From Changchengzhania lutea (lineage in GTDB: Bacteria; Bacteroidota; Bacteroidia; Flavobacteriales; Flavobacteriaceae), in contig NZ_CP039456.1 in NCBI RefSeq assembly GCF_006974145.1, positions 1,394,001 to 1,458,000 on the forward strand: DNA of 64,000 nucleotides. The letters run 5' to 3'. The notes beneath the pieces were generated by a model that had not been told where the DNA came from, ran no database searches, and saw nothing but the letters and a program-made list of their open reading frames with translations. The position numbers and the translations under genes were made by a program. How positions within the stretch are numbered: the first letter of the stretch is position 1; the number at the start of each line of letters is the position of its first letter. Below are positions 42,977 to 56,190 of this stretch, piece by piece.

Positions 42977-43006
42977 TACTTTTGCTTCTTTAAAATCAAT
43001 CTAAAT
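42977..43006 (+). promoter_or_regulatory. feoA promoter with candidate DtxR-family box
   Basis: TACTTTTG at 42977-42984 matches the -7 consensus TAnnTTTG, 27 nt before the feoA start. The 18 bases 42989-43006 match the perfect palindrome at 46645-46662 at 14 positions, with the right half AATCTAAA identical. This would place the site over the transcript start, suited to repression. Because the sequence is AT-rich the match could be fortuitous. Confidence 0.4.
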
Positions 43007-43010
43007 AAGC

Positions 43011-43247
43011 TTGGAAGATACTTTAGCCAATTTAAAACGTGGAGAACGCGGCATTATAAAGGATGTTTCGTCAGTTCATATTCCATTAAAGCTCCTAGAA
43101 ATGGGGTGCTTACCAGGTAATAGTGTCAAACTAGTACAAATGGCTCCATTCCAGGATCCCATGTACTTAAACATCAATGGCACGCATTTAGCCATAAGAA
43201 AGGAAACTGCTATCCATGTTTTAATTGAACGCGTAGCAGATGAGTAA
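43011..43247 (+). CDS. feoA: ferrous iron transport protein A
   Basis: A 78-residue SH3-like protein that assists FeoB. It shows LANLKRGERGIIKDV, RLLEMG-like LKLLEMGCLPGNSVKLV and HLAIRKETAIHVLI, all standard. The start is TTG at 43011; no ATG exists in this part of the frame. The 3' end overlaps feoB by 8 nt, so translation is coupled. Confidence 0.93.
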   Translation: MEDTLANLKRGERGIIKDVSSVHIPLKLLEMGCLPGNSVKLVQMAPFQDPMYLNINGTHLAIRKETAIHVLIERVADE

Positions 43248-45339
43248 ACAAATAAATGTTGCCTTAATTGGAAATCCAAACACAGGGAAAACTTCCGTTT
43301 TTAATGCCTTAACCGGACTCAATCAAAAAGTTGGTAATTACCCAGGCATAACGGTTGAGAAAAAAGAAGGTATTTGTAAGCTTCCCCGCGGTGTGAAGGC
43401 ACATATTATAGATCTACCTGGTACGTATAGCTTAAACGCTTCATCCCTTGATGAAAATGTTGTTATAGAACTTCTTCTTAATCGAAATGATAAAGACTTT
43501 CCAGATATTGCGATTGTTGTTAGTGATGTCGAGAACTTAAAACGTAACCTGCTCCTTTTTACCCAAATAAAAGATCTTCAAATTCCTGTTGCCTTGGTGA
43601 TTAATATGGCAGATAGAATGCGTTATAAAGGCATTTCGCTAGATATTCCTTTTTTGGAAGAACACCTTAAAACAAAAATTGCATTAATTAGTACCCGTAA
43701 AAATGAAGGTATTGACACTTTAAAAGATATTATTGCCAATTATAAGGAGTTATCGGTCACACCATGTTTAAATGCTTCTGAGATTGATGTAGAATATTTT
43801 GAAAACCTGCGAAAAGCCTTTCCAAATCAATTACTCTATAAACTTTGGCTCGTCATTACCCAGGATGTTAACTTTGGTAAAACCGACCGAAATGAAATTG
43901 ATGCTGTTGCAAATTTCAAAACTAAAAGCAAAAGCGATTTAAAGCGGTTACAGCAAAAAGAAACCATAAAACGCTATCAATTTATAAACAACGTACTTAA
44001 AAAAGGGCAAACTATAGACGCCTCTCAAGCTAAAGATTTACGAACCAAATTGGATCGTGTTTTAACCCATAAGGTTTGGGGTTATGTCATATTCTTTTTA
44101 ATCTTGCTTACTATTTTTCAAGCCATTTATGACTGGTCTAGTGTTCCCATGGATTTTATCGATGGTGTTTTTGCCTCATTAAGTGAATGGACAAAAAACG
44201 AACTACCACAAGGTGCATTTACAAGTTTGCTGGCAGAAGGCATCATTCCCGGACTTGGCGGTATCGTTATATTTATTCCGCAAATTGCCTTTCTGTTTTT
44301 ATTTATTGCCGTACTTGAAGAAAGTGGTTATATGAGTCGTGTGGTGTTTTTGATGGATCGCGTCATGCGCCGTTTTGGTTTAAGTGGCAAAAGTGTTGTT
44401 CCCTTAATTTCAGGAACAGCCTGTGCCATTCCCGCTATAATGGCAACCCGAAATATTGAAAGTTGGAAAGAACGCCTCATTACTATTTTAGTGACGCCAT
44501 TTACCACCTGTTCTGCAAGACTTCCGGTATACTTGATTATTATTTCACTCATCATTCCCGAAGGCCGCTTTCTTGGATTGAGCTTTCAAGCATTAACGCT
44601 CATGCTATTATACCTTATTGGCTTTGGTACCGCCGTTATATCCGCCTATATTTTAAATAAAATTTTAAAGATTAGGAGTAAAACCTTTTTTGTGGTTGAA
44701 ATGCCTAATTACAAGCTGCCGTTATTAAAAAATGTCGTTTTAACGGTTGTTGAAAAAACAAAATCCTTTGTTTATGGTGCCGGGAAAATAATTTTAGCAA
44801 TATCCATTGTGTTGTGGTTTCTAGCATCTTATGGCCCGGGCGAAGATTTTAAAAATGCCGAAAATATAGTAAACATAGAATATGCCTCTCAAAATTTATC
44901 TTCAGAAGCTTTGCAACAAAAAATCGCATCGCATAAATTAGAACACTCCTTTATTGGCATCACTGGAAGAGCTATTGAACCTGCTATTAGACCCTTGGGC
45001 TATGATTGGAAAATTGGTATTGCCATAATAAGCTCTTTTGCTGCTCGGGAAGTTTTTGTTGGCACTTTGGCTACAATTTACAGTGTTGGAAGCGATGAAG
45101 AAGCCACCATAAAAAACAGAATGGCTGCTGAAATTAATCCAATTCTGGGTGGTCCATTATTTACGTTTGCTTCTGGTATTTCATTGTTGCTGTTCTACGC
45201 CTTTGCCATGCAATGCATGAGTACTTTGGCTATTGTAAAACGTGAAACCAATAGTTGGAAATGGCCCATCTTACAGCTAGTAATTATGAGCGGATTTGCT
45301 TATATTGTAGCATTAATTGCTTTTCAGCTTTTGAAATAA
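43240..45339 (+). CDS. feoB: ferrous iron transport protein B
   Basis: A 699-residue inner-membrane Fe(II) transporter with N-terminal G domain: GNPNTGKTS (11-19), DLPGTYSL (59-66) and VINMAD. It then has two Gate-type membrane modules with GFAY and the ISGTACAIPAIMATRN segment holding a Cys typical of FeoB, and MQCMSTLAIVKRET near the end. Complete. Operon with feoA and followed after 39 nt by a small Cys-rich membrane peptide. Confidence 0.97.
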   Translation: MSKQINVALIGNPNTGKTSVFNALTGLNQKVGNYPGITVEKKEGICKLPRGVKAHIIDLPGTYSLNASSLDENVVIELLLNRNDKDFPDIAIVVSDVENLKRNLLLFTQIKDLQIPVALVINMADRMRYKGISLDIPFLEEHLKTKIALISTRKNEGIDTLKDIIANYKELSVTPCLNASEIDVEYFENLRKAFPNQLLYKLWLVITQDVNFGKTDRNEIDAVANFKTKSKSDLKRLQQKETIKRYQFINNVLKKGQTIDASQAKDLRTKLDRVLTHKVWGYVIFFLILLTIFQAIYDWSSVPMDFIDGVFASLSEWTKNELPQGAFTSLLAEGIIPGLGGIVIFIPQIAFLFLFIAVLEESGYMSRVVFLMDRVMRRFGLSGKSVVPLISGTACAIPAIMATRNIESWKERLITILVTPFTTCSARLPVYLIIISLIIPEGRFLGLSFQALTLMLLYLIGFGTAVISAYILNKILKIRSKTFFVVEMPNYKLPLLKNVVLTVVEKTKSFVYGAGKIILAISIVLWFLASYGPGEDFKNAENIVNIEYASQNLSSEALQQKIASHKLEHSFIGITGRAIEPAIRPLGYDWKIGIAIISSFAAREVFVGTLATIYSVGSDEEATIKNRMAAEINPILGGPLFTFASGISLLLFYAFAMQCMSTLAIVKRETNSWKWPILQLVIMSGFAYIVALIAFQLLK

Positions 45340-45378: not shown

Positions 45379-45519
45379 ATGAATCCTCTTTTGCAAAATA
45401 TTTTAGCCTTTTCTGCACTCATAGTTGCTGTCGGATTTCTAGTGGCTAAATTTATCTGGAAACCGAAGAAAAAATCCTCTAAAGCCTGTGGCGGTGACGA
45501 TGGTTGTGGCTGCCATTAA
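45379..45519 (+). CDS. FeoB-associated Cys-rich membrane peptide
   Basis: A 46-residue peptide beginning MNPLLQNILAFSALIVAVGF with one membrane helix (about 7-26), then KPKKKSS and a terminal CGGDDGCGCH cluster. This architecture matches the FeoB-associated Cys-rich family, which sits in the place of FeoC in many genomes. The three cysteines and final His could bind iron. The product is short and easily missed. Confidence 0.88.
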   Translation: MNPLLQNILAFSALIVAVGFLVAKFIWKPKKKSSKACGGDDGCGCH

Positions 45520-45543: not shown

Positions 45544-46200
45544 TTAACACAATTTAACAAACAAGTTATTGGCTATTATATTAGATATAATAAGTTCTTG
45601 TGTATTTGTTTTTATTTTTATTGAATTATCAAAAGGTTCTCTATTGCTTACTTGGAACTTTGTTCCTAAAGCAATATTATTTTTATCTAAATACTTTAAA
45701 AAATCTGACGAGGAATCTTTAACACCAACACAGATGCAGTCCTCTCCAATTGGAACTTTCGATAAAAGTATTTTATCCATTTTTTTTATATTTCCGCTTT
45801 TATCAGGAATTGGGTCGCCATGTGGATCGTGTGTTGGGAATTCTAAAAAAGCGTCCAATTGATCGATGAGCTTATCCGACTTGATATGCTCTAATTGTTC
45901 TGCAACTTCATGAACCTCATCCCATGAAAAATTGAATTTTTCAACTAAAAACACCTCCCAAAGCCTATGCTTTCTAATAATATTAGTTGCTATTTGATTC
46001 CCTTCATCAGTAAGATTAACGCCTTGATATTTTTTGTAAGCAGCATAGCCTTTTTCTGATAGTTTCTTTACCATGTCTGTTACCGAAGAAGCTTTTGTAT
46101 TCATTTCTTTTGCTATAGCATTTGTACTCACATTAATAGCTCCTTGCTTTCCTAAATGATAAATGACTTTTATATAATTCTCTTCGGTAAGTGTTATCAT
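45544..46200 (-). CDS. DtxR/MntR-family metal-dependent repressor
   Basis: 218 residues from ATG 46200 (MITLTEENYIKVIYHL). An upstream start at 46224 is in the promoter. The wHTH NVSTNAIAKEMNTKASSVTDMVKKLSEKG is typical of the family, followed by the dimer/metal domain (RKHRLWEVFLVEKFNFSWDEVHEVAEQLEH and DPHGDPIP) and a C-terminal SH3/FeoA-like domain. Metal choice (Fe or Mn) cannot be told from sequence by eye. It is convergent with the feo operon and divergent from the di-heme operon, whose promoter holds a palindrome of the expected type. Confidence 0.93.
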   Translation of the reverse strand: MITLTEENYIKVIYHLGKQGAINVSTNAIAKEMNTKASSVTDMVKKLSEKGYAAYKKYQGVNLTDEGNQIATNIIRKHRLWEVFLVEKFNFSWDEVHEVAEQLEHIKSDKLIDQLDAFLEFPTHDPHGDPIPDKSGNIKKMDKILLSKVPIGEDCICVGVKDSSSDFLKYLDKNNIALGTKFQVSNREPFDNSIKIKTNTQELIISNIIANNLFVKLC

Positions 46201-46221
46201 CGCTATACTAATTTTTAACAA

Positions 46222-46229
46222 CAAATATA
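46222..46229 (-). promoter_or_regulatory. -7 element of the DtxR-family repressor gene
   Basis: CAAATATA on plus, TATATTTG on minus, matches TAnnTTTG 21 nt before the ATG at 46200. No clear palindrome like 46645-46662 overlaps it, so autoregulation is not supported by this sequence. Confidence 0.5.
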
Positions 46230-46290
46230 AAATAATTAACCCGTTGTGTATTATGGTTTGTTCAACTTAATTTGGGTGCCAGTTGGGTTT

Positions 46291-46436
46291 CTATAACGTA
46301 ACCAAACGATTTTTAAATAGATTTCCACTTTTAATAATCCCAAAGATGCTATGTATGATTTTGTTTCTAACAACACTTAAAACCACCATTTTGTTTTTGC
46401 CTTCCTCTTTTTCTTCGAAAATATATACTTAAATCA
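46291..46436 (-). pseudogene. C-terminal remnant of an IS110-family transposase
   Basis: On the minus strand the frame ending with TAG at 46291-46293 reads VYIFEEKEEGKNKMVVLSVV then RNKIIHSIFGIIKSG. This matches the end of IS110/IS1111 transposases (EGK.KM.VLNAVRNK....RIFA pattern). Only about 45 codons remain and no upstream frame continues. It sits in the 450-bp gap between the DtxR-family gene and the di-heme gene. Confidence 0.72.
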
Positions 46437-46510
46437 TTTCTGGCTTAATGACGCTCATTACATCTAAATGGAGTAATTTTTTCATCAATCTGATTTTAAG
46501 TAGAAAACTA

Positions 46511-46552
46511 TATCGAGAACTAGTTTACTCTTCGGAAGTTTAATTCTCGATA
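46511..46552. repeat. TATCGAGAA inverted repeat
   Basis: TATCGAGAA (46511-46519) and TTCTCGATA (46544-46552) are perfect 9-bp arms around ACTCTTCGGAAGT-containing sequence. It resembles dispersed flavobacterial palindromes. It lies 93 bp upstream of the DtxR-type box and could be a terminator or a repeat; not decided. Confidence 0.6.
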
Positions 46553-46644
46553 CTAATTTCACGCATATTTATTAGCAAAATTCACGCGAAGTGACAAATT
46601 TTCGCCAAAAAGCATCCAGATAATAATTAAATCATTAAAATAAT

Positions 46645-46677
46645 TTTTAGATTAATCTAAAATAATATTTATATTTG
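46645..46677 (+). promoter_or_regulatory. promoter with perfect 18-bp DtxR/MntR-type operator
   Basis: TTTTAGATTAATCTAAAA at 46645-46662 is a perfect 18-bp palindrome of the form expected for DtxR/MntR regulators (TTAG-type half sites). Seven nt later is TATATTTG (46670-46677), the -7 consensus; the palindrome covers the -33 region. It lies 36 nt before the di-heme gene and opposite the DtxR-family gene, so metal-dependent repression of this operon is strongly suggested. Confidence 0.8.
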
Positions 46678-46698
46678 CAAAAAATAAATATCAACTTA

Positions 46699-47883
46699 AT
46701 GAAAAAATCATGTTTTATTATTAGTTTAGTCGTAACACTTATTTGTGTGTCGTGTGATAAAGCCATTCTCGAAGGTCCTTTAGATGAAAATGTATTAGAT
46801 GGACAAATAGAAGGGTTATCATTTGATGAAAATATTCAGTTTTTAAATGGAGATGAGGCTTTTGCAGAAGTGTTTACATCAAGTAATGGATTAGGCCCTT
46901 TGTTTGTTGCAAACAGTTGTGTTACCTGTCATGCGGGGGATGGGAAAGGACATCCTTTTACTACATTAACACGATTTGGACAAATAGACGCAAGTGGAAA
47001 TCAGTATTTAAACTTTGGAGGTCCTCAATTACAAAATAGAGCGTTACCCGGTTATACTCCAGAGGCTATTCCAAGTGGAGCAACATCGGCAAAATTAACA
47101 CCTCCAATAACCACAGGATTGGGATTTTTAGACGCAGTAACGGATGCAGATATTATTGCAATGTCCGATCCAAATGATGCAGATGGCGATGGTATTAGCG
47201 GCGTACCAAACTGGGCAGAAATTCCACCTTATGTGATTTTAAGAGCCAATGCCATAGCTCAAAACGGAAAATACATTCATCGTTTTGGAAAAAAAGCTGC
47301 CGCATATGATTTATTACACCAAACCGTATCAGCATACAATCAAGATATGGGAATCACCTCTACTTTTGAACCAATTGACACCTATTCTGGATTAGAGGTT
47401 GATCCAGAAGTTTCAAATAATGCCGTTAATGATGTTGTTTTTTATCTTAAGACATTAAAAGCTCCTATTCAGCGTGATGAAGACAATGTGTTTTCTGGTA
47501 AAAATATTTTCTCAGAAATTAAATGTGCTAGTTGCCACAAACCAACATTGAAAACTGGATTTTCTCCTATCGAAGCAATCTCAAACAAAGAATTCCATCC
47601 TTTTACCGATTTATTATTACATGACATGGGAAGTAATTTAGATGATGGCTATACAGAAGGTGGTGCATTAACTGCCGAATGGAGAACACCGCCATTATGG
47701 GGGCTTGGGTTAGCTCCAGACTCTCAAGGTGGTGAGTATTTTTTAATGCATGATGGCCGAGCCAGAAGTATTGAAGAAGCCATACTTTTGCATGAAGGCG
47801 AAGCAGCAAATAGCAGATCACTCTATCAAAATCTTTCTCAAACAGAGAAAAATAATTTGATAGAATTCTTAAACTCTCTTTAA
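46699..47883 (+). CDS. di-heme oxidoreductase-family lipoprotein
   Basis: 394 residues from ATG 46699; the lipobox is ICVSC (Cys19). Two heme c sites are visible: CVTCH (74-78) and CASCH (276-280). The domain matches the DHOR/DUF1111 family, related to di-heme peroxidases; homologues with imelysin proteins are often iron-regulated. It keeps RTPPLWGLG and HDGRARSIEEAILLHEGEA, family motifs near the C-terminus. Expected in the periplasm, lipid-anchored. It starts an operon with the Rieske gene (1-nt gap) and the barrel. Substrate unknown; redox handling of iron or manganese is an inference from the operator and neighbours. Confidence 0.87.
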   Translation: MKKSCFIISLVVTLICVSCDKAILEGPLDENVLDGQIEGLSFDENIQFLNGDEAFAEVFTSSNGLGPLFVANSCVTCHAGDGKGHPFTTLTRFGQIDASGNQYLNFGGPQLQNRALPGYTPEAIPSGATSAKLTPPITTGLGFLDAVTDADIIAMSDPNDADGDGISGVPNWAEIPPYVILRANAIAQNGKYIHRFGKKAAAYDLLHQTVSAYNQDMGITSTFEPIDTYSGLEVDPEVSNNAVNDVVFYLKTLKAPIQRDEDNVFSGKNIFSEIKCASCHKPTLKTGFSPIEAISNKEFHPFTDLLLHDMGSNLDDGYTEGGALTAEWRTPPLWGLGLAPDSQGGEYFLMHDGRARSIEEAILLHEGEAANSRSLYQNLSQTEKNNLIEFLNSL

Positions 47884-47884
47884 A

Positions 47885-48325
47885 ATGAACAGAAAAGAAT
47901 TTATAAAAACATGTGGGTTTGCTTGTGCAGGAACACTTGTTTTTGGCAGTGTTTTTCAAAGTTGTTCTTCAGTAAAAATGATTTCTGGAATAATTGAAAA
48001 TGATATCATTATTGTTAAATTATCTGACTTTATAATCTCAAAAGATAATTCCTTTAGGAAATACGTAATTATACAAAATGAAAAATTAAATTTTCCGATA
48101 AGTGTATATCGAATAAATGATACTCAGTATAGTGCGTTATGGATGCAATGTACACACCAAGGTAACGAATTAACTGCTTTCGGAGACAGACTTCAATGTT
48201 CTGCCCATGGTAGCGAATTTGACAAAAACGGCAATGTAACCAATGGTCCTGCATCTAATCGTTTAAAGACATTTCCAGTTGTAAAAGAAAAAGAATTATT
48301 AAAAATTTCACTAAAAACGGTATGA
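47885..48325 (+). CDS. Rieske 2Fe-2S protein, lipid- or membrane-anchored
   Basis: 146 residues. The cluster ligands are Cys89/His91 in QCTHQG and Cys105/His108 in CSAHGSEF, the full Rieske motif. The N-terminus has MNRKEFIKTCGFACAG followed by a hydrophobic stretch and SVFQSCSS, so a signal or lipobox at Cys27 is likely. It probably works in the periplasm as electron carrier to or from the di-heme protein encoded just upstream. It overlaps the barrel gene by 4 nt (ATGA). Confidence 0.9.
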   Translation: MNRKEFIKTCGFACAGTLVFGSVFQSCSSVKMISGIIENDIIIVKLSDFIISKDNSFRKYVIIQNEKLNFPISVYRINDTQYSALWMQCTHQGNELTAFGDRLQCSAHGSEFDKNGNVTNGPASNRLKTFPVVKEKELLKISLKTV

Positions 48326-49551
48326 ACAAATTCATAATATTACTAGTAATTGTTGCTTTATCGATACCTGAAAGTATCGCCCAAATTGATGATTCATTAT
48401 TAAGAAAAACACAAAAAGACACCGTAAATAAATCTATGAATATGGATGCTGTTTACAACAGACCTTTTCTTGGCTTAGGCAAAACACCTATTTCAGTTGG
48501 AGGTTACGCCGAAGCCAATTGGCAATATTTAGGTACGGATGGTGTTAGTGAGGGGCATCAATTTCAAATGAGAAGAATGACTCTATTCGTTTCTTCAACC
48601 ATTAGCAAAAAAATTAAATTCTTGAGTGAAATTGAATTTGAAGAAGGAGGAAAAGAAATTGCGATTGAATTTGCTGCAATCGATGTAGAATTTCATCCCC
48701 TGTTTAATTTAAGAGGAGGCATTATCATGAACCCAATAGGCGCATTTAACCAAAATCATGATGGCCCAAAATGGGAATTTACTGATCGCCCTATTTCAGC
48801 AACACAAATGCTACCTGCAACATGGAGCAATGCTGGATTTGGACTGTTCGGGAAAACATATTCCGATAATTGGATGTTTGGTTATGAAACCTATTTATCA
48901 GGCGGTTTTGACAACACAATTATTGATAATGCAGAAAACAAAACCTTTTTACCTGCAGCTAAAAACAATGAAGAACGATTTGAAGAGTCTGCAAGCGGAA
49001 CCCCTTTATTAACTGCCAAATTGGCTGTACGCCATAATAAAATTGGAGAATTAGGAATCTCCTATATGGGAGGAATTTATAATACATTTGAAGATGATGG
49101 TGTGGTATTAGATGAAAAACGCAGGTTGAACGTGTTTGCTTTAGACTTCAATACGACCATTCCAAAAACAAACACTTTTATTGTAGGAGAATGGGCTTGG
49201 ATTTCTATAGATATTCCTTCTACGTATACACAACAATTTGGGAACAAACAAAAAGGTGGATTTGTTGATATTGTACAGCCCATACTAAAAAAAGAGATGC
49301 TAGGTTGGGAAAAAGCGACTTTAAATGTGGCATTTCGTTTGGAATATGTAGATTGGAATGTTGGTGAATTTAACGAAACAGGAGGAAATATTGGTGAAGA
49401 TACTTGGAGTATCGTACCAGCAATTAGTTTTAGACCAACATCAGAAACCGTATTTCGATTAAATTATAGATACCAGCAACAATATGACCTTTTAGGCAAT
49501 GGTCCCGCCGAAACTAGTGGACTTAGTTTTGGGGTTTCTACCTATTTTTAG
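48322..49551 (+). CDS. porin-like outer membrane beta-barrel
   Basis: 409 residues with signal peptide ending ESIAQ (residue 21). Strand-rich throughout, with VGGYAEANWQYLGTDG, FQMRRMTLFVSSTISKKIKFLSE, and a terminal FGVSTYF with C-terminal Phe, as expected of a barrel. It resembles phosphate-selective-porin/OprP-type or generic flavobacterial porins; no ligand can be named. Operon position suggests it admits or contacts the substrate of the di-heme and Rieske proteins. Confidence 0.82.
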   Translation: MNKFIILLVIVALSIPESIAQIDDSLLRKTQKDTVNKSMNMDAVYNRPFLGLGKTPISVGGYAEANWQYLGTDGVSEGHQFQMRRMTLFVSSTISKKIKFLSEIEFEEGGKEIAIEFAAIDVEFHPLFNLRGGIIMNPIGAFNQNHDGPKWEFTDRPISATQMLPATWSNAGFGLFGKTYSDNWMFGYETYLSGGFDNTIIDNAENKTFLPAAKNNEERFEESASGTPLLTAKLAVRHNKIGELGISYMGGIYNTFEDDGVVLDEKRRLNVFALDFNTTIPKTNTFIVGEWAWISIDIPSTYTQQFGNKQKGGFVDIVQPILKKEMLGWEKATLNVAFRLEYVDWNVGEFNETGGNIGEDTWSIVPAISFRPTSETVFRLNYRYQQQYDLLGNGPAETSGLSFGVSTYF

Positions 49552-49677
49552 TAATATAGCTATTATGAAACATCCATAACTAAAAATTAGAGACATAAAG
49601 GAATGATTATATGGATGTTCCATGCCTGTGCTGAGCGCAGCCGAAGTATGACCGATAAAATAAATAGATAAAGACAC

Positions 49678-50583
49678 ATGAAGCAAATAAGGATCATACT
49701 ACTTACAGCAATAATTTTAATAAGCTGCAAAACCGAAAAGAAAACCAACGGCAAACTAAACGTTGTTACCACGACATCTATGATAACCGATTTGGCTAAA
49801 AACATTGGTGGCGAGCATATCAATTTACAAGGTTTAATGGGTAGTGGCGTAGACCCACACTTGTATAAAGCCAGTGAGGGCGATGTATCAAAGCTTTCAA
49901 ATGCTGATATTATTTTTTATAACGGTCTACACTTAGAAGGTAAACTGGTTGAGGTTTTCGAGAAAATGAAAACCATACAAACCATGGCCATTTCTGATGC
50001 TTTAGACCAAAAAACCCTAATTGGTTCAGAATATTTTGCTTCAAATTACGATCCGCATATTTGGTTTAATGTCGATTATTGGATCCAAGCCACACAATTT
50101 ATTGTCAATAAGCTTTCTGAAGCCGTTCCTGAACAAAAAGCAGCCTTTGAAGCCAACGGTATCAATTATACCAAAAAGTTGGAATCCTTAAAAGTACACT
50201 TGAAATGCATCATTGAAACACTTCCCAAGGAAAAACGTATTTTAGTAACCGCACACGATGCCTTTAACTATTTTGGGAAGTCGTTTGGGTTTAAAGTTGT
50301 TGGCTTACAAGGCATTTCAACCGCTACCGAAGCTGGCGTACAGGATGTTCAAAAACTGGCAGCTTTCATTATAGAAAACAATGTAAAAGCTATTTTTGTG
50401 GAAAGCTCGGTGCCAAAAAGAACCATTGAAGCCTTACAAGCCGCCGTAAAGTCTAAAAATCACGACGTAACGATTGGCGGCACGCTGTATTCTGATGCTT
50501 TGGGTGATGCGGGAACTGTTGAAGGCACATATATTGGTATGTTTCAGTACAATGTAAATACGATTGTGAATGCACTAAAATAA
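49678..50583 (+). CDS. metal ABC transporter substrate-binding lipoprotein (Mn/Fe type)
   Basis: 301 residues, lipobox LISC (Cys17). It belongs to the cluster A-I TroA/PsaA/ZnuA family. Likely ligands are His61 (GVDPHLYKAS), His127 (NYDPHIWFN), Glu218 (STATEAG) and Asp273 (LYSDALG). The His-His-Glu-Asp set is the Mn/Fe type; there is no His-rich loop as in ZnuA. The gap before it carries a CTGAGCGCAGCCGAAG-type repeat. It is followed by the ATPase and two permeases on the same strand. Confidence 0.9.
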   Translation: MKQIRIILLTAIILISCKTEKKTNGKLNVVTTTSMITDLAKNIGGEHINLQGLMGSGVDPHLYKASEGDVSKLSNADIIFYNGLHLEGKLVEVFEKMKTIQTMAISDALDQKTLIGSEYFASNYDPHIWFNVDYWIQATQFIVNKLSEAVPEQKAAFEANGINYTKKLESLKVHLKCIIETLPKEKRILVTAHDAFNYFGKSFGFKVVGLQGISTATEAGVQDVQKLAAFIIENNVKAIFVESSVPKRTIEALQAAVKSKNHDVTIGGTLYSDALGDAGTVEGTYIGMFQYNVNTIVNALK

Positions 50584-50876: not shown

Positions 50877-51614
50877 ATGAAACAAAACATTGCAGTACAA
50901 GTAGACGATTTAACGGTAGCTTATAACTATAAACCCGTGCTTTGGGATATCGATTTAGAAATTCCCGAAGGCGTACTTATGGCTATTGTTGGACCAAACG
51001 GCGCAGGGAAATCAACCCTTATAAAATCCATTTTAGGGATTTTAAAACCTATTGCTGGAAGTGTTTCTATTTATGGCAAACCCTATGAAAAGCAACGCTC
51101 GCTCGTAGCTTACGTGCCTCAAAAAGGAAGTGTGGATTGGGATTTTCCAACCACAGCATTAGATGTCGTGATGATGGGGACTTACGGGAGCTTAGGTTGG
51201 ATTAAGCGCCCTGGATTGACACAAAAAAAATTAGCTCTAGAAGCCTTAGAGAAAGTAGGGATGCTAGCTTTTAAGGGCAGGCAAATAAGTCAGCTTTCTG
51301 GCGGCCAACAACAACGTATTTTTTTAGCCAGAGCTTTGGTACAGAACGCTTCCATTTATTTTATGGATGAGCCTTTTCAAGGGGTGGATGCGACCACAGA
51401 AATAGCCATCATTAATATTTTAAAGGAACTCAGAAAAGAAGGTAAGACCGTTATAGTCGTGCATCACGATTTACAAACGGTTCCAGAATATTTTGATTGG
51501 GTAACTTTTTTAAATGTCAAAAAAATAGCAACAGGTCCTGTTAAGGATATTTTTAATGATGATAATCTCACTAAGACCTATGGTATTAACTATAAAGTGA
51601 GTATTCAGAAATAA
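50877..51614 (+). CDS. metal ABC transporter ATP-binding protein
   Basis: 245 residues. Walker [10 protein letters not shown] (39-47), signature LSGGQQQR, Walker [13 protein letters not shown] and the switch His in VVHHDL are all present. It powers the import of the metal bound by the protein encoded at 49678. Separated from the binding protein by a gap with a palindromic repeat, and from the first permease by 185 bp with other repeats, which is wide for one operon. Confidence 0.95.
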
Positions 51615-51799: not shown

Positions 51800-52927
51800 A
51801 TGGATATAACAGAATACATAAAACTCGTCTTTACAGACTACACCCTAAGAACCATAACCTTAGGAACTGCTGTTTTAGGTGCCGTAACTGGTATGTTGGG
51901 TAGTTTTGCAGTGCTTAGAAAACAAAGCCTATTGGGCGATGCCATATCACACGCTGCCTTACCAGGCATCGCCATTGCCTTTTTAATAACCGGTGCAAAA
52001 GACAGCAACGTACTCTTGTTGGGTGCTTTAGTAAGTGGGCTTATCGGGACGTTTTGGATTAGAGGTATCACCACAAAAACACACTTAAAATCTGACACGG
52101 CACTGGGTCTCATTTTGTCTTTATTTTTCGGTTTTGGGATGTTACTCCTCACGTTCATTCAAAAACAGCCCAACGCCAATCAGGCAGGTTTAGATAAGTA
52201 TTTATTCGGGCAAGCCGCCACTTTAGTTGAAAGCGATGTTTGGCTCATGGCCATTGTCACTGGTATTTGTTTGTTTGTTCTTTTACTTTTTTGGAAAGAA
52301 TTCAAAATCCTTTTGTTCGATGCCGACTATACTAAAACACTAGGTTTCAACACAAAATTTATCGATATTCTAATCACCTCGTTTATAGTACTAGCTATTG
52401 TGTTAGGCCTGCAAACCGTAGGTGTCGTGCTTATGAGCGCTATGCTACTAGCACCCGCTGCCGCTGCAAGACAGTGGACTAACAGCCTTAGTGTTATGGT
52501 GTTTTTAGCAGCGCTTTTTGGTGCTTTTTCAGGTGTGGTTGGCACCGCAATTAGCGCCAGCCAAAACAACCTGTCCACTGGACCCGTTATTGTGATCATT
52601 GCTGGTATATTTGTGCTGTTTTCATTTATATTTTCACCTAGTAGAGGTTTGTTATTTAAGCATATTAGATTCATTAAGAACCGTAGAGATATCGAATTGC
52701 ACAAAACATTAGCATTCATGTATCACATTGCAGAAACACACGAGAATATTTCACATCCTCATGCTGTTAAAATCTTAAATAATTTTCAAGGGTTTACCAA
52801 AGGCACACTTCAGAAATTGGTAGATAAAGACTATGTGACTATACACGGGAACGAATGGAGTTTAACTGAAGAAGGCTTTAAAACAGCAGCAAATTTATAT
52901 AATCAACAACCAGCACCTAATGAGTAG
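51800..52927 (+). CDS. metal ABC transporter permease with C-terminal winged-helix-like tail
   Basis: 375 residues. Residues 1-285 form the ABC-3 permease of the TroC/ZnuB type, with RKQSLLGDAISHAALPGIAIAF and LMSAMLLAPAAAARQWTN. After FSPSRGLLFKHIRFIKNR comes a cytoplasmic tail of about 85 residues, which reads like a wHTH of DtxR type (HAVKILNNFQGFTKGTLQKLVDKDYVTIHGNEWSLTEEGF). It overlaps the next permease by 8 nt. The tail may sense metal or bind a regulator; this is inferred. Confidence 0.9.
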   Translation: MDITEYIKLVFTDYTLRTITLGTAVLGAVTGMLGSFAVLRKQSLLGDAISHAALPGIAIAFLITGAKDSNVLLLGALVSGLIGTFWIRGITTKTHLKSDTALGLILSLFFGFGMLLLTFIQKQPNANQAGLDKYLFGQAATLVESDVWLMAIVTGICLFVLLLFWKEFKILLFDADYTKTLGFNTKFIDILITSFIVLAIVLGLQTVGVVLMSAMLLAPAAAARQWTNSLSVMVFLAALFGAFSGVVGTAISASQNNLSTGPVIVIIAGIFVLFSFIFSPSRGLLFKHIRFIKNRRDIELHKTLAFMYHIAETHENISHPHAVKILNNFQGFTKGTLQKLVDKDYVTIHGNEWSLTEEGFKTAANLYNQQPAPNE

Positions 52928-54080
52928 TGCACAGATAGAAATACAACTTATTGCTTGCTTGGTGGCGGTGGCCTGTGCTATTCCAGGTACGTTTTTAGTA
53001 CTCCGGAAAATGGCAATGATCAGTGATGCTATTAGTCATTCCATTTTACCTGGTATTGTCATTGGCTTCTTTATTACCCAAGATTTAAATTCGCCAGTAC
53101 TCATATTTTTGGCGGCGTTAACAGGCATACTAACCGTAGTGTTGGTAGAGCGCATTCAAAAAACAGGTTTGGTAAAAGAAGATACTGCCATTGGATTAGT
53201 CTTTCCAATTCTATTCAGTATTGGCGTTATCATGATTGCTAAAAACGCCAACGATGTGCATTTGGATGTAGATGCGGTTTTGCTGGGTGAGTTGGCTTTC
53301 GCGCCTTTTGATAGATTACTCATTTCGGGTGTTGATGTTGGACCAAAATCCTTATGGATTATTGGAAGCATTCTTATCGTAACTATAGGCTTATTAATTG
53401 CTTTTTTCAAAGAACTTAAGGTCAGTACATTTGATGCTGGTCTAGCTTCGGCATTGGGGTTTTCTCCTGCTATTATTCATTATGGATTGATGACCGTGTC
53501 TTCTATCACCACCGTAGGTGCATTTGATGCCGTAGGCGCCATTTTAGTCGTGGCATTAATGATTGCCCCAGCCGCTACAGCTTATTTACTGACCACCAAT
53601 TTAAAACGGATGCTTTTGTACGCCGTATTATTTGGCATATTCAGTGCCCTTTCTGGGTATTGGCTCGCCCATTGGCTAGATGCCTCCATATCTGGATCTA
53701 TAACGACTATGCTCGGGTTATTGTTTTTAGTGGTTTATTTATTTGCCCCCAGCAAAGGTATTATTGCGGTGTTATATCGAGAAAAACAACAAAGAACAGA
53801 AGTGTCGTTACTCACCTTTTTATTACATTTAAAAAACCATACTGAAGAACGGGAACGACATGTTAATCACCTTAGCGAGCATATCAATTGGCAAAAAGTG
53901 AGGGCTAAAACCGTATTGGACCTAGCACTTAAAAATAATATGATTTTAATTGAAAAAAACATTGTGTCACTTACTGTAAAGGGAGATGAATTTACTTCTC
54001 AAGCCATTGATTATATTATTACCAATGAAGATGCACAAATTGAAGATATGAAAGAGGATTTCTTCTTGTTTAGGGGATAG
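52920..54080 (+). CDS. metal ABC transporter permease 2 with C-terminal winged-helix-like tail
   Basis: 386 residues. Residues 1-285 match the ABC-3 family (RKMAMISDAISHSILPGIVIGF, ILVVALMIAPAATAYLLTT). The tail after FAPSKGIIAVLYREKQQ is about 100 residues with helices and a wing-like IEKNIVSLTVKGDEFTSQAI. It is similar in layout to the tail of the first permease but diverged, so both subunits of a heterodimer carry such extensions. Ends the metal operon. Confidence 0.9.
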   Translation: MSSAQIEIQLIACLVAVACAIPGTFLVLRKMAMISDAISHSILPGIVIGFFITQDLNSPVLIFLAALTGILTVVLVERIQKTGLVKEDTAIGLVFPILFSIGVIMIAKNANDVHLDVDAVLLGELAFAPFDRLLISGVDVGPKSLWIIGSILIVTIGLLIAFFKELKVSTFDAGLASALGFSPAIIHYGLMTVSSITTVGAFDAVGAILVVALMIAPAATAYLLTTNLKRMLLYAVLFGIFSALSGYWLAHWLDASISGSITTMLGLLFLVVYLFAPSKGIIAVLYREKQQRTEVSLLTFLLHLKNHTEERERHVNHLSEHINWQKVRAKTVLDLALKNNMILIEKNIVSLTVKGDEFTSQAIDYIITNEDAQIEDMKEDFFLFRG

Positions 54081-54215: not shown

Positions 54216-54253
54216 TATATTTGTAACCATGTGTAATGTTACATAATATGGTT
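54216..54253 (+). promoter_or_regulatory. promoter and dyad operator at the start of the methyltransferase gene
   Basis: TATATTTG (54216-54223) is a -7 consensus. It is followed at once by AACCAT (54225-54230) ... ATGGTT (54248-54253) enclosing TGTAA-TG-TTACA (54233-54244). The dyad overlaps the start codon region, so a bound protein would block transcription. The methyltransferase's own N-terminal HTH is the obvious candidate binder. Confidence 0.55.
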
Positions 54254-55531
54254 ATAAAGGATTACTATTCAATATCAGAAGTATCGGAAATTCTAGAAAA
54301 AAGCACAGAAACATTAAGACGTTGGGATAGCACCGGTAAATTACCAGCAACCCGAGAGCCCATAAGCGACTATAGAATCTATAAAAAGGAACAACTTGAA
54401 CTATTTCCTAGATTTAATACGTATGTTAATGGAAAGAAATTTTCTGGGAATCATATAAAACCTACCAAAGAATTTTCTGTGTTAGAGCTTTTTGCTGGTG
54501 CAGGCGGTTTAGCTTTAGGACTAGAAAAAGCTGGTTTAAATTGTGTTGCTTTAAATGAAGTTGACAAATGGGCTTGCGAAACATTGCGTCAAAACAGACC
54601 TAGTTGGAATGTTTTGGAAGGGGACATTAAAAATTTTGATTTTTCAAAATATGAAAATGAAGTTGATATAGTCACAGGTGGATTTCCTTGTCAAGCGTTC
54701 AGTTATGCTGGAAAAAAATTAGGATTAAATGATACACGAGGCACTTTATTTTATGAATTTGCCAGAGTTATAAATGAAGTAAAACCTAAAATTTGCCTTG
54801 GAGAAAATGTAAAAGGCTTGTTGAGTCACGAAAAGGGAAAAACACTTGAAGGAATGATTTCTGTTTTAGATGAAATTGGTTATAACGTAGTTTCTCCGGC
54901 TCGAGTTTTAAAAGCGATTAACTATAATGTTCCTCAAAAAAGAGAACGGCTTATCTTAATTGGTGTTAGAAAAGATATTGATTTAGAATACCACTACCCT
55001 TTACCTTATGATACTATCTATAATTTAAGTGATGCGCTTAAAAAAGGAAAGCTTTTTGAAACCGATGTTCCAAAATCTGAAGGTTCTAAATATCCTAAAC
55101 ACAAAAAAGATGTGCTTGATTTAGTACCACAAAAAGGGTATTGGCGAGATTTGCCCTTAGATATTCAAAAAGAATATATGCAAAAAAGTTTTTATTTAGG
55201 TGGCGGAAAAACAGGAATGGCTAGACGCATTGGATGGGATGAACCTTGTTTAACATTAACATGCAGTCCAGCGCAGAAACAAACCGAACGTTGCCATCCA
55301 GATGAAACGAGACCTTTCACCGTTAGGGAATATGCTAGAATCCAAACTTTTCCAGATGATTGGAAATTCAATGGATCGGTGTCCCAACAATACAAGCAAA
55401 TAGGTAATGCCGTTCCAGTTAATTTAGCAAAAGAAATAGGCTTTTCTTTAGTGAATTTTTTAAATGATTATGAAAAAATGAATCAAGAAAATTTAGCTTC
55501 AATTTCTTTAGAAAGTGTTTCAATAGTTTGA
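54248..55531 (+). CDS. DNA (cytosine-5) methyltransferase with N-terminal MerR-like HTH
   Basis: 427 residues from ATG 54248 (MVIKDYYSISEVSEIL); an ATG at 54236 is in frame. The first 55 residues form a MerR-type HTH (SEVSEILEKSTETLRRWDSTGKL). The rest is a C5 methyltransferase: motif I VLELFAGAGGLALGLE, catalytic Cys148 in GGFPCQAFSYAG, ENV motif in GENVKGL, motif VIII QKRERLILIG and motif X QYKQIGNAVPVNLAKEI. It protects the host from the convergent endonuclease. The fused HTH probably autoregulates the gene. Confidence 0.95.
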   Translation: MVIKDYYSISEVSEILEKSTETLRRWDSTGKLPATREPISDYRIYKKEQLELFPRFNTYVNGKKFSGNHIKPTKEFSVLELFAGAGGLALGLEKAGLNCVALNEVDKWACETLRQNRPSWNVLEGDIKNFDFSKYENEVDIVTGGFPCQAFSYAGKKLGLNDTRGTLFYEFARVINEVKPKICLGENVKGLLSHEKGKTLEGMISVLDEIGYNVVSPARVLKAINYNVPQKRERLILIGVRKDIDLEYHYPLPYDTIYNLSDALKKGKLFETDVPKSEGSKYPKHKKDVLDLVPQKGYWRDLPLDIQKEYMQKSFYLGGGKTGMARRIGWDEPCLTLTCSPAQKQTERCHPDETRPFTVREYARIQTFPDDWKFNGSVSQQYKQIGNAVPVNLAKEIGFSLVNFLNDYEKMNQENLASISLESVSIV

Positions 55532-56190
55532 TGTAAAACTTTAGTGCCATCAACTTCTAAAGCCACTTCTCCAACAGCGTCAATTAAATCATAATAGAAA
55601 TCTTCTTTTCCTGTTAATCTGTGCCAAAAATCTTTTCCAACTATAACTGGGTACTTTTCGTTAATTCGCTTATAATGGGAACTTAGTTCAGAAGTTTCAC
55701 CATAAATAACCCCAACAACCATATCATTAATACCAATATTTAAATTGTTGGTTCTTGCTAAACTTATAGTGCCTTTAAAATGATTGAAAATCGTTTCCAC
55801 ATCATCAAAGTTTATCGTATTTGGGCCAGATTTGAGTTGGCAATATTTTTTTCTTCCGTCTATAGCATCAATAAATTCAATATCAACTCCATGTGTTGTG
55901 GAACCAAAACCTTCAAAAAGTTCACTTATCAATTTTTGAATCCTCATACCAAAAGATGTATTTATAGAAGAGCCTAAAACTCTAGGCAGAACCAAAGCTT
56001 CAGCAATACTTTTGGCATCATCATTCCCCTTTAAAAAATTAGCCAAATATTTAAACAAAAAAGGGTTAATGTTATAATTCTTTAACTGACTAGCCTTTTT
56101 ACAACCTACATTAATATGTGCTTTTACAATTTCATTTCTGAAAAAATTTTTAGCTTTGTTTAATAGCAATAATCTCTGATTTTCTTCCAT
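55483..56190 (-). CDS. type II restriction endonuclease, PmeII-like
   Basis: 235 residues. The PD-(D/E)xK-like core is GVDIEFIDAIDGRKKYCQLK with Asp103, Gln118 and Lys120. LPRVLGSSINTSFGMRIQKLI and SGPNTINFDDVETIFNHFKG agree with the PmeII family. The last 49 nt overlap the 3' end of the methyltransferase gene in tail-to-tail orientation. Recognition site not inferred here. Confidence 0.87.
   Translation of the reverse strand: MEENQRLLLLNKAKNFFRNEIVKAHINVGCKKASQLKNYNINPFLFKYLANFLKGNDDAKSIAEALVLPRVLGSSINTSFGMRIQKLISELFEGFGSTTHGVDIEFIDAIDGRKKYCQLKSGPNTINFDDVETIFNHFKGTISLARTNNLNIGINDMVVGVIYGETSELSSHYKRINEKYPVIVGKDFWHRLTGKEDFYYDLIDAVGEVALEVDGTKVLHQTIETLSKEIEAKFS

Follow-up and report, generated by a model that had tools for sequence, protein, structure and literature searches.

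What does an operon do that encodes a two-heme protein, a Rieske iron-sulphur protein and an outer-membrane barrel, and to which signal does it respond? The question is raised by a 64,000-nucleotide stretch of the genome of Changchengzhania lutea (Flavobacteriaceae; assembly GCF_006974145.1, contig NZ_CP039456.1, positions 1,394,001 to 1,458,000 of the forward strand), referred to here as the window, in which these three genes follow a perfect palindrome. A first-pass annotation had taken the palindrome to be the site of a metal-dependent repressor and the genes to be a redox chain that prepares iron or manganese for import. Comparison of sequences across genomes establishes the DHOR-family gene, the Rieske gene and the porin gene as one conserved unit, widespread and mobile in the Bacteroidota. 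One and the same palindromic box stands in the promoter of this unit and in that of a flavobacterial DtxR/MntR-type regulator often found near feoB. The features concerned, in window coordinates, are as follows.

46645..46662, no strand: proposed operator TTTTAGATTAATCTAAAA, a perfect 18-bp palindrome of the type TTAG-N6-CTAA (from pattern and conservation)
46671..46678, + strand: -7 promoter element TATATTTG, TAnnTTTG type, 3' of the palindrome and about 20 bp 5' of the DHOR ATG
46699..47883, + strand: short-form DHOR (PF06537), 394 aa, two CxxCH motifs, lipobox-like ...VSC signal (Pfam)
47885..48325, + strand: Rieske [2Fe-2S] protein, 146 aa, RK-type (Tat-like) signal and lipobox by eye (Pfam)
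48322..49551, + strand: outer-membrane barrel, 409 aa, predicted 16-strand porin fold (model and fold comparison)

A conserved three-gene unit and its palindromic box

The tight spacing of the trio described in the first-pass annotation was found, with a gap of 1 bp between DHOR and Rieske and an overlap of 4 bp between Rieske and barrel, as was the perfect palindrome over its promoter, followed by the -7 element. The latter is called a promoter element on the basis of TAnnTTTG, the Bacteroidota-type -7 consensus, and a TAnnTTTG-like element lies about 30 bp 5' of the DHOR start in five same-family orthologues.

A scan of GTDB genome contigs with the DHOR yielded 444 relatives, of which the best 80 loci were analysed. 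In 79 of these the DHOR is followed by a Rieske motif at a distance of no more than 900 bp, and in 77 the barrel gene comes next; the misses, including the one for Rieske (locus L171), all fall at contig ends where 220-559 bp of contig are left. The reverse search, starting from the barrel, covered 395 genomes of the phylum, 61 of them with a match, and in 27 of the 30 loci analysed (the window's own included) Rieske and DHOR genes stand immediately before it; of the other three, L203 and L209 are cut off by the contig end and L202 has its barrel gene divided between two contigs. Eighteen weaker barrel matches were other porins. The conserved neighbourhood for which the first-pass annotation had proposed a search is recovered from either end. 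Gaps are mostly -1 to 13 bp between DHOR and Rieske and mostly -4 bp between Rieske and barrel. In a same-family sample of 100 genomes, the window's own included, a close short DHOR was present in five other genomes (58-68% identity), each time followed by Rieske and barrel, and taxa with DHOR relatives include Flavobacteriaceae, Fluviicola, Chitinophagaceae, Pedobacter, Algoriphagus, Saprospiraceae and Prolixibacteraceae.

Other flavobacterial Rieske genes were considered as members of the trio and rejected. Ten further loci (of 19), read by eye over about 1.5 kb each side, have ApbE-like, thioredoxin-like or other neighbours and none has a two-heme oxidoreductase; one of them, L076, has a cytochrome b-like neighbour with a CxxCH motif.

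The palindrome by itself was rejected as proof of an operator, as such palindromes arise by chance: the window holds two that are perfect over 18 bp, where 0.69 would be expected. When up to three mismatches are allowed, the genome has 185 copies and the reversed control 117, and TTTAG-N6-CTAAA occurs 50 times against 30 for its control, so that most genome matches need not be operators. The palindrome is meaningful because it is conserved at relatives, not because of the bare pattern. Among the 80 loci, TTAG-N6-CTAA lies within 120 bp upstream of the DHOR in 64, and in 36 of 47 cases upstream of the DtxR gene, against 9 of 1086 for other open reading frames (ORFs) and 0 of 157 for Rieske and barrel starts. 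Six of the nine ORFs are divergent from the DHOR and share its box read backwards (four DUF6660, two mntH); the remaining three are a TonB receptor after the trio (in L141) and two others. Dereplication at 85% left the box at 35 of 42 DHOR genes, and TTTAG-N6-CTAAA lies within 90 bp of the DHOR start in all five other same-family trios. A palindrome confined to the window would have undone the earlier proposal; it proved to be conserved upstream of orthologues. A second form of the box, TTTGGYATRCC[AT]AA, occurs upstream of the DHOR in 5 of the 80 loci, the loose pattern being found upstream of 4 of 1291 other ORFs.

The regulator and its pairing with the box

The gene divergent from the trio encodes the candidate for the protein that would bind the box.

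45544..46200, - strand: DtxR/MntR-family metalloregulator, the proposed repressor (Fe_dep_repress, Fe_dep_repr_C and FeoA domains, Pfam)

The first-pass annotation had placed this gene back to back with the operon; the divergent orientation holds, but the arrangement is not tight, the regulator ATG being about 445 bp from the palindrome. A homologue was found in 91 genomes of the family, and in the best 30 of these loci (window included) the box stands upstream of dtxR in every case, at 31-59 bp in 28, at 141 bp in one and at about 445 bp in the window. The box is therefore also part of the regulator's own conserved promoter, a point which the first-pass annotation had missed. FeoB homology lies within 1.5 kb of dtxR in 19 of the 30 loci, reaching 60% identity or above in 12 of them, and sitA in four. 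As a separate observation, the stretch between dtxR and the box (46200-46645) looks expanded in the window, at about 445 bp against 31-141 bp in the 29 orthologue loci.

Helix-turn-helix, metal-binding/dimerisation and FeoA-like domains are all present, and SloR and ScaR are among the regulator's five best solved relatives; it scores below the cut-off of both the MntR and the DtxR NCBIfam models. Its metal site reads E-x-x-E-H, in which the DtxR Cys is missing, and it has Asn at a position that is Asp in MntR and Met in DtxR; this position is N in 26 of the 30 orthologues and D in four, so the metal may be Mn or Fe. The core of the box resembles TTAGGTTAGCCTAA of DtxR/IdeR operators, and the exact 14-mer TTAGGTTAGCCTAA occurs upstream of the DHOR in L109. 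Box and regulator also appear to vary together: the trio loci with the alternative box (L158, L164, L167, L170 and L175) are the five in which the regulator has the recognition helix NPATVTEGLRKL, a helix absent from all TTAG loci in the list compared.

In 34 of the 80 trio loci, another point that the first-pass annotation had missed, no dtxR lies within two ORFs upstream; 29 of these still carry TTAG-N6-CTAA, so control in trans is likely where the regulator gene is not nearby. With the box at both the DHOR (64 of 80) and dtxR (30 of 30), the proposal of the first-pass annotation that the trio is under DtxR/MntR-type metal control gains much support, and regulation by such a repressor is, in our judgement, very probable.

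Proteins, neighbours and the proposed function

Length filters for alignment and motif reading were passed by 78 of the 80 DHORs, 75 Rieske proteins and 74 barrels. The DHOR matches PF06537 with 203 bits against a gathering threshold of 22, the alignment covering profile positions 221-499 only, and its heme motifs, C74-C77-H78 and C276-C279-H280, are invariant in 35 sequences. A fold search with the DHOR model found no significant match (E 0.7 or worse), and searches of solved structures with DHOR and barrel found nothing useful. The Rieske protein (Pfam, 45.6 bits) belongs to a set in which the CxH...CxxH cluster ligands are present in 75 of 75 length-filtered sequences; the window protein lacks the disulphide Cys pair, which some orthologues keep together with CPCHGS. 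Signal rules link an RK-type N-terminus to Tat export and a lipobox to lipidation; RKEFIK-like motifs and a lipobox, seen by eye, and a TatC encoded in the genome suggest that the Rieske protein is Tat-exported and lipidated. The barrel has only a sub-threshold BBP2 match in Pfam, and was modelled as a 16-strand porin (predicted local distance difference test, pLDDT, 83) which folds like OmpT, OprP and OmpF. We infer, from strand alternation only, that its glutamates 103-116 face the pore. The acidic strand row was rejected as a trio-specific mark of cation selectivity, the glutamates being family-wide in paralogous porins (all 18 paralogues have Glu at positions 103, 105, 107 and 116, and 16 of them have it at 112).

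On either side of the regulator and trio lie genes for the uptake of metals.

42990..43005, + strand: TTAAAATCAATCTAAA, three mismatches to the box, just 5' of feoA; a possible weak site, of a kind (three-mismatch matches) common across the genome
43011..43247, + strand: FeoA, TTG start (PF04023, 62 bits)
43240..45339, + strand: FeoB ferrous iron permease (profile match)
45379..45519, + strand: small Cys-rich protein, FeoB-associated type by eye
49678..50583, + strand: SitA/MntC/ZnuA-like binding lipoprotein of a metal ATP-binding cassette (ABC) importer (profile match)
50877..51614, + strand: ABC importer ATPase
51800..52927, + strand: ABC-3 permease
52920..54080, + strand: second ABC-3 permease

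The name FeoB-associated for the small Cys-rich protein is our presumption; the NCBIfam models searched gave zero matches to it. The ABC metal importer that the first-pass annotation had placed after the trio begins at 49678. Its sitA is separated from the barrel gene by 126 bp in the window and by 133 bp in Lutibacter NORP37 (L102); neither gap contains TTAG-N6-CTAA and that of the window has no terminator-like site, so read-through from the trio promoter into sitA is possible. A GC-rich element, GAGCGCAGCCGAAG (49633-49646), stands in AT-rich surroundings within the same gap; it is present in a single copy in the window and is possibly an inserted repeat. Further downstream is a restriction-modification pair, in which a C5-cytosine methyltransferase gene with an N-terminal MerR-type helix-turn-helix (54236-55531) is faced by an EcoO109I-type restriction endonuclease gene (55483-56190, minus strand).

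Trio, dtxR, feoAB and sitABCD occur together, in differing orders, in the window, in genome G082 (L085) and in L102; in G082, dtxR and sitA diverge from a single box between them. In Flavobacterium gawalongense (L141) and F. amniphilum (L144), the trio and mntH (Nramp) share one box, from which they diverge, and dtxR lies behind mntH. The link between the trio and iron or manganese importers drawn in the first-pass annotation is thus borne out by feoAB and sitABCD in the window and by mntH in the two Flavobacterium loci. The MntH/Nramp proteins of these loci are fused to a C-terminal universal-stress-protein domain (L144:8012-9880, Pfam Usp; L141:7981-9849, weak Usp).

The function which we propose may be set out as follows. 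When loaded with Fe(II) and/or Mn(II), the regulator would sit on the palindrome and block the overlapping promoter, keeping the trio off; scarcity of metal would free the promoter and, with it, those of importers (sitABCD or mntH, for example). The porin would admit small metal species across the outer membrane, and the Rieske and di-heme lipoproteins would exchange electrons with the metal in the periplasm, after which divalent-metal importers would take it up. Reduction of Fe(III) to Fe(II) is slightly favoured as the direction, since FeoB and an ABC importer for divalent metals are encoded in the genome and an FTR1-type permease is not. Within islands for Zn, Cd and Cu efflux, some of them plasmid-borne, the unit would sustain the supply of iron and manganese under competing metals. 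A role for the trio in the acquisition of iron or manganese is probable. The statement as a whole, that is, a metal-starvation module with acquisition, redox step and entry through the porin, we hold with moderate confidence, and no more than that because fewer of the 80 loci have importers nearby than have efflux genes. More tentative still, and in our view doubtful, is the boldest form: a redox machine in which a dedicated porin, a Rieske protein and a di-heme lipoprotein reduce or oxidise iron or manganese at the outer membrane, feed Feo, Sit and MntH, and have spread with heavy-metal-resistance islands, keeping uptake going under toxic-metal stress.

Several observations weigh against this function and should be considered with it. 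Importers are rare among the 80 loci, with one sitA (L102), four FeoB homologues and two mntH, and an efflux gene (RND, adaptor or P-type ATPase) is no more than eight ORFs away in 52 of the 80, or 53 with DUF6660. Neither form of the box was found within 150 bp, or within 600 bp, in 11 of the 80 loci. The five loci with the alternative operator form two clusters when grouped at 85% DHOR identity, so the covariation of helix and operator rests on few independent cases. The model of the DHOR is poor (pLDDT 59.5), the heme ligands not being placeable in it, and the strand glutamates of the porin are common to paralogous porins. Finally, according to PMC9478572, a Bizionia mliR mutant has BZARG_RS03000 (cytochrome c) and RS03005 (Rieske), a pair with consecutive locus tags, among its ten most reduced transcripts, iron-uptake and imelysin-like genes changing along with them. 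The change in step with iron-uptake genes speaks for the proposed function, its direction against: the mutant contains less Fe, Mn and Zn, and a fall of the pair under these conditions is more readily explained by activation or an indirect effect than by simple derepression. The pair, read there as respiratory complex III, may be a trio-type unit, since, of the family's Rieske loci which were examined (those of the trio and ten more), only trio loci have a di-heme or c-type cytochrome beside Rieske, the cytochrome b-like neighbour mentioned above being the exception.

The efflux genes lead to the alternative that survives best, namely that the trio belongs to defence against heavy metals (Zn, Cd, Cu or Hg), in which porin and redox proteins would act on the toxic metal, by altering or expelling it, or would shield the periplasm, and the DtxR-family regulator would sense a shortage caused by mis-metallation. 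That many trio loci lie in heavy-metal-resistance neighbourhoods had been missed in the first-pass annotation. CusA/CzcA-type RND or adaptor genes lie within eight ORFs in 43 of the 80 loci and P-type ATPases in 33 (each family was named from a single member of its cluster). Dereplication of the trio loci leaves 42 representatives, 19 of which have RND or adaptor genes nearby. By hand count, 48 CusA homologues at 50% identity or more are present in 29 trio-bearing genomes (about 122 Mb), so that less than 1% of 20-kb stretches would be expected to hold one by chance. The DHOR matched 79 plasmid records, the largest groups being Thermus and Azospirillum, and on both of the Bacteroidota plasmids examined, Haliscomenobacter pHALHY01 and Hymenobacter HDW8, the trio is accompanied by CzcA-type genes. 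However, the box is missing from the efflux genes (RND 0 of 49, adaptor 0 of 49, P-type ATPase 0 of 42) and is found at DUF6660 in 4 of 33 cases, all divergent over the DHOR box, which marks the trio as a separately controlled cassette, and the trio stands beside iron and manganese importers in the window, G082 and L102. A function in defence is rather unlikely. Of the plasmid loci, that of Thermus thermophilus pAA3-7b (L212) has a short DHOR 38% identical to that of the window, with an imelysin gene adjacent and an Nramp transporter a few genes away.

There is also the possibility that the DHOR acts like EfeB, oxidising Fe(II) or removing peroxide with Fe(II), while the Rieske protein serves as a carrier towards the respiratory chain. 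Pfam calls DHOR a putative peroxidase, and PMC3143127 likens DUF1111 di-heme peroxidases to EfeB; the disulphide Cys and the CPCHGS of bc1/b6f Rieske proteins are retained in some of the orthologues. However, the genome lacks both the FTR1/EfeU permease and the imelysin partner, the neighbouring importers are of the divalent-metal type, and the window Rieske has no disulphide Cys, all of which leaves this an improbable account, slightly more so than defence. Least likely by far is a MauG/MbnH-like DHOR that oxidises residues of a partner, such as the porin, to build a metal-binding site while the Rieske protein exchanges electrons, for which MbnH/MbnP is a precedent and MauG and di-heme cytochrome c peroxidase appear among the weak fold matches, these being insignificant and drawn from the poor DHOR model.

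Significance and relation to known systems

DHOR/DUF1111 proteins occur beside iron-uptake genes in many bacteria, and to our knowledge their reaction is not known. With the trio this question becomes testable, as it is a small and mobile set of three genes in which Rieske protein and porin are constant and the repressor site is recognisable, and it supplies a candidate electron partner and entry route for DHOR. It also gives a DtxR-type operator for the Bacteroidota which may be used for regulon mapping. The first-pass annotation knew of no description of the set, and our literature search, which covered few papers from subscription journals, found none describing a DHOR-Rieske-porin trio.

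The regulons of DtxR/IdeR and of MntR/SloR/ScaR have regulators with the same set of domains and a similar operator core; they differ in that the trio was not found among their described targets. The porin-cytochrome conduits MtrAB/PioAB likewise encode an outer-membrane barrel with a heme protein, whereas the trio has a predicted 16-strand porin, two hemes and no multiheme cytochrome that threads the barrel. MnoP, the manganese channel of Bradyrhizobium, is a metal-regulated outer-membrane pore for a divalent metal to which the trio porin may be likened; the trio porin differs in having redox partners. In contrast to the Rieske subunit of bc1/b6f complexes, that of the window lacks the disulphide Cys pair and has DHOR and porin genes, not cytochrome b, as neighbours.

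EfeUOB resembles the trio in tying a periplasmic heme redox protein to iron uptake, as described in PMC3143127. The window's own genome gave no match to an FTR1-type permease or to imelysin (PF09375), while control profiles matched, and the absence of a ferric permease of this type speaks against a scheme of oxidation followed by import in this genome.

The closest relatives are the DHOR/imelysin clusters. The same paper, PMC3143127, connects DUF1111 di-heme peroxidases and imelysins with iron uptake, gives a Pseudomonas aeruginosa operon (PA4370-PA4373 type) as Fur-regulated, in keeping with the earlier remark that DHOR-imelysin relatives are iron-regulated, and describes putative outer-membrane clusters without EfeU. 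Like the trio, these clusters have a di-heme DHOR in an operon of metal-starvation type and no inner-membrane permease, whereas the trio has Rieske and porin in place of imelysin and a DtxR-type box. The window genome has one DHOR, the short form of 394 aa, against 463-489 aa in the DHOR/imelysin loci read, and ten long-DHOR loci from Flavobacteriaceae, examined by eye, have imelysin-like neighbours and no Rieske motif. A four-gene operon of porin, Rieske, imelysin and DHOR is present in G456 (L264:5262-9419, Pfam) and in G307 (L265:8072-12220, by eye), and a porin-Rieske pair in G483. The four-gene operon bridges the two kinds and is possibly an ancestor or a sister of the trio.

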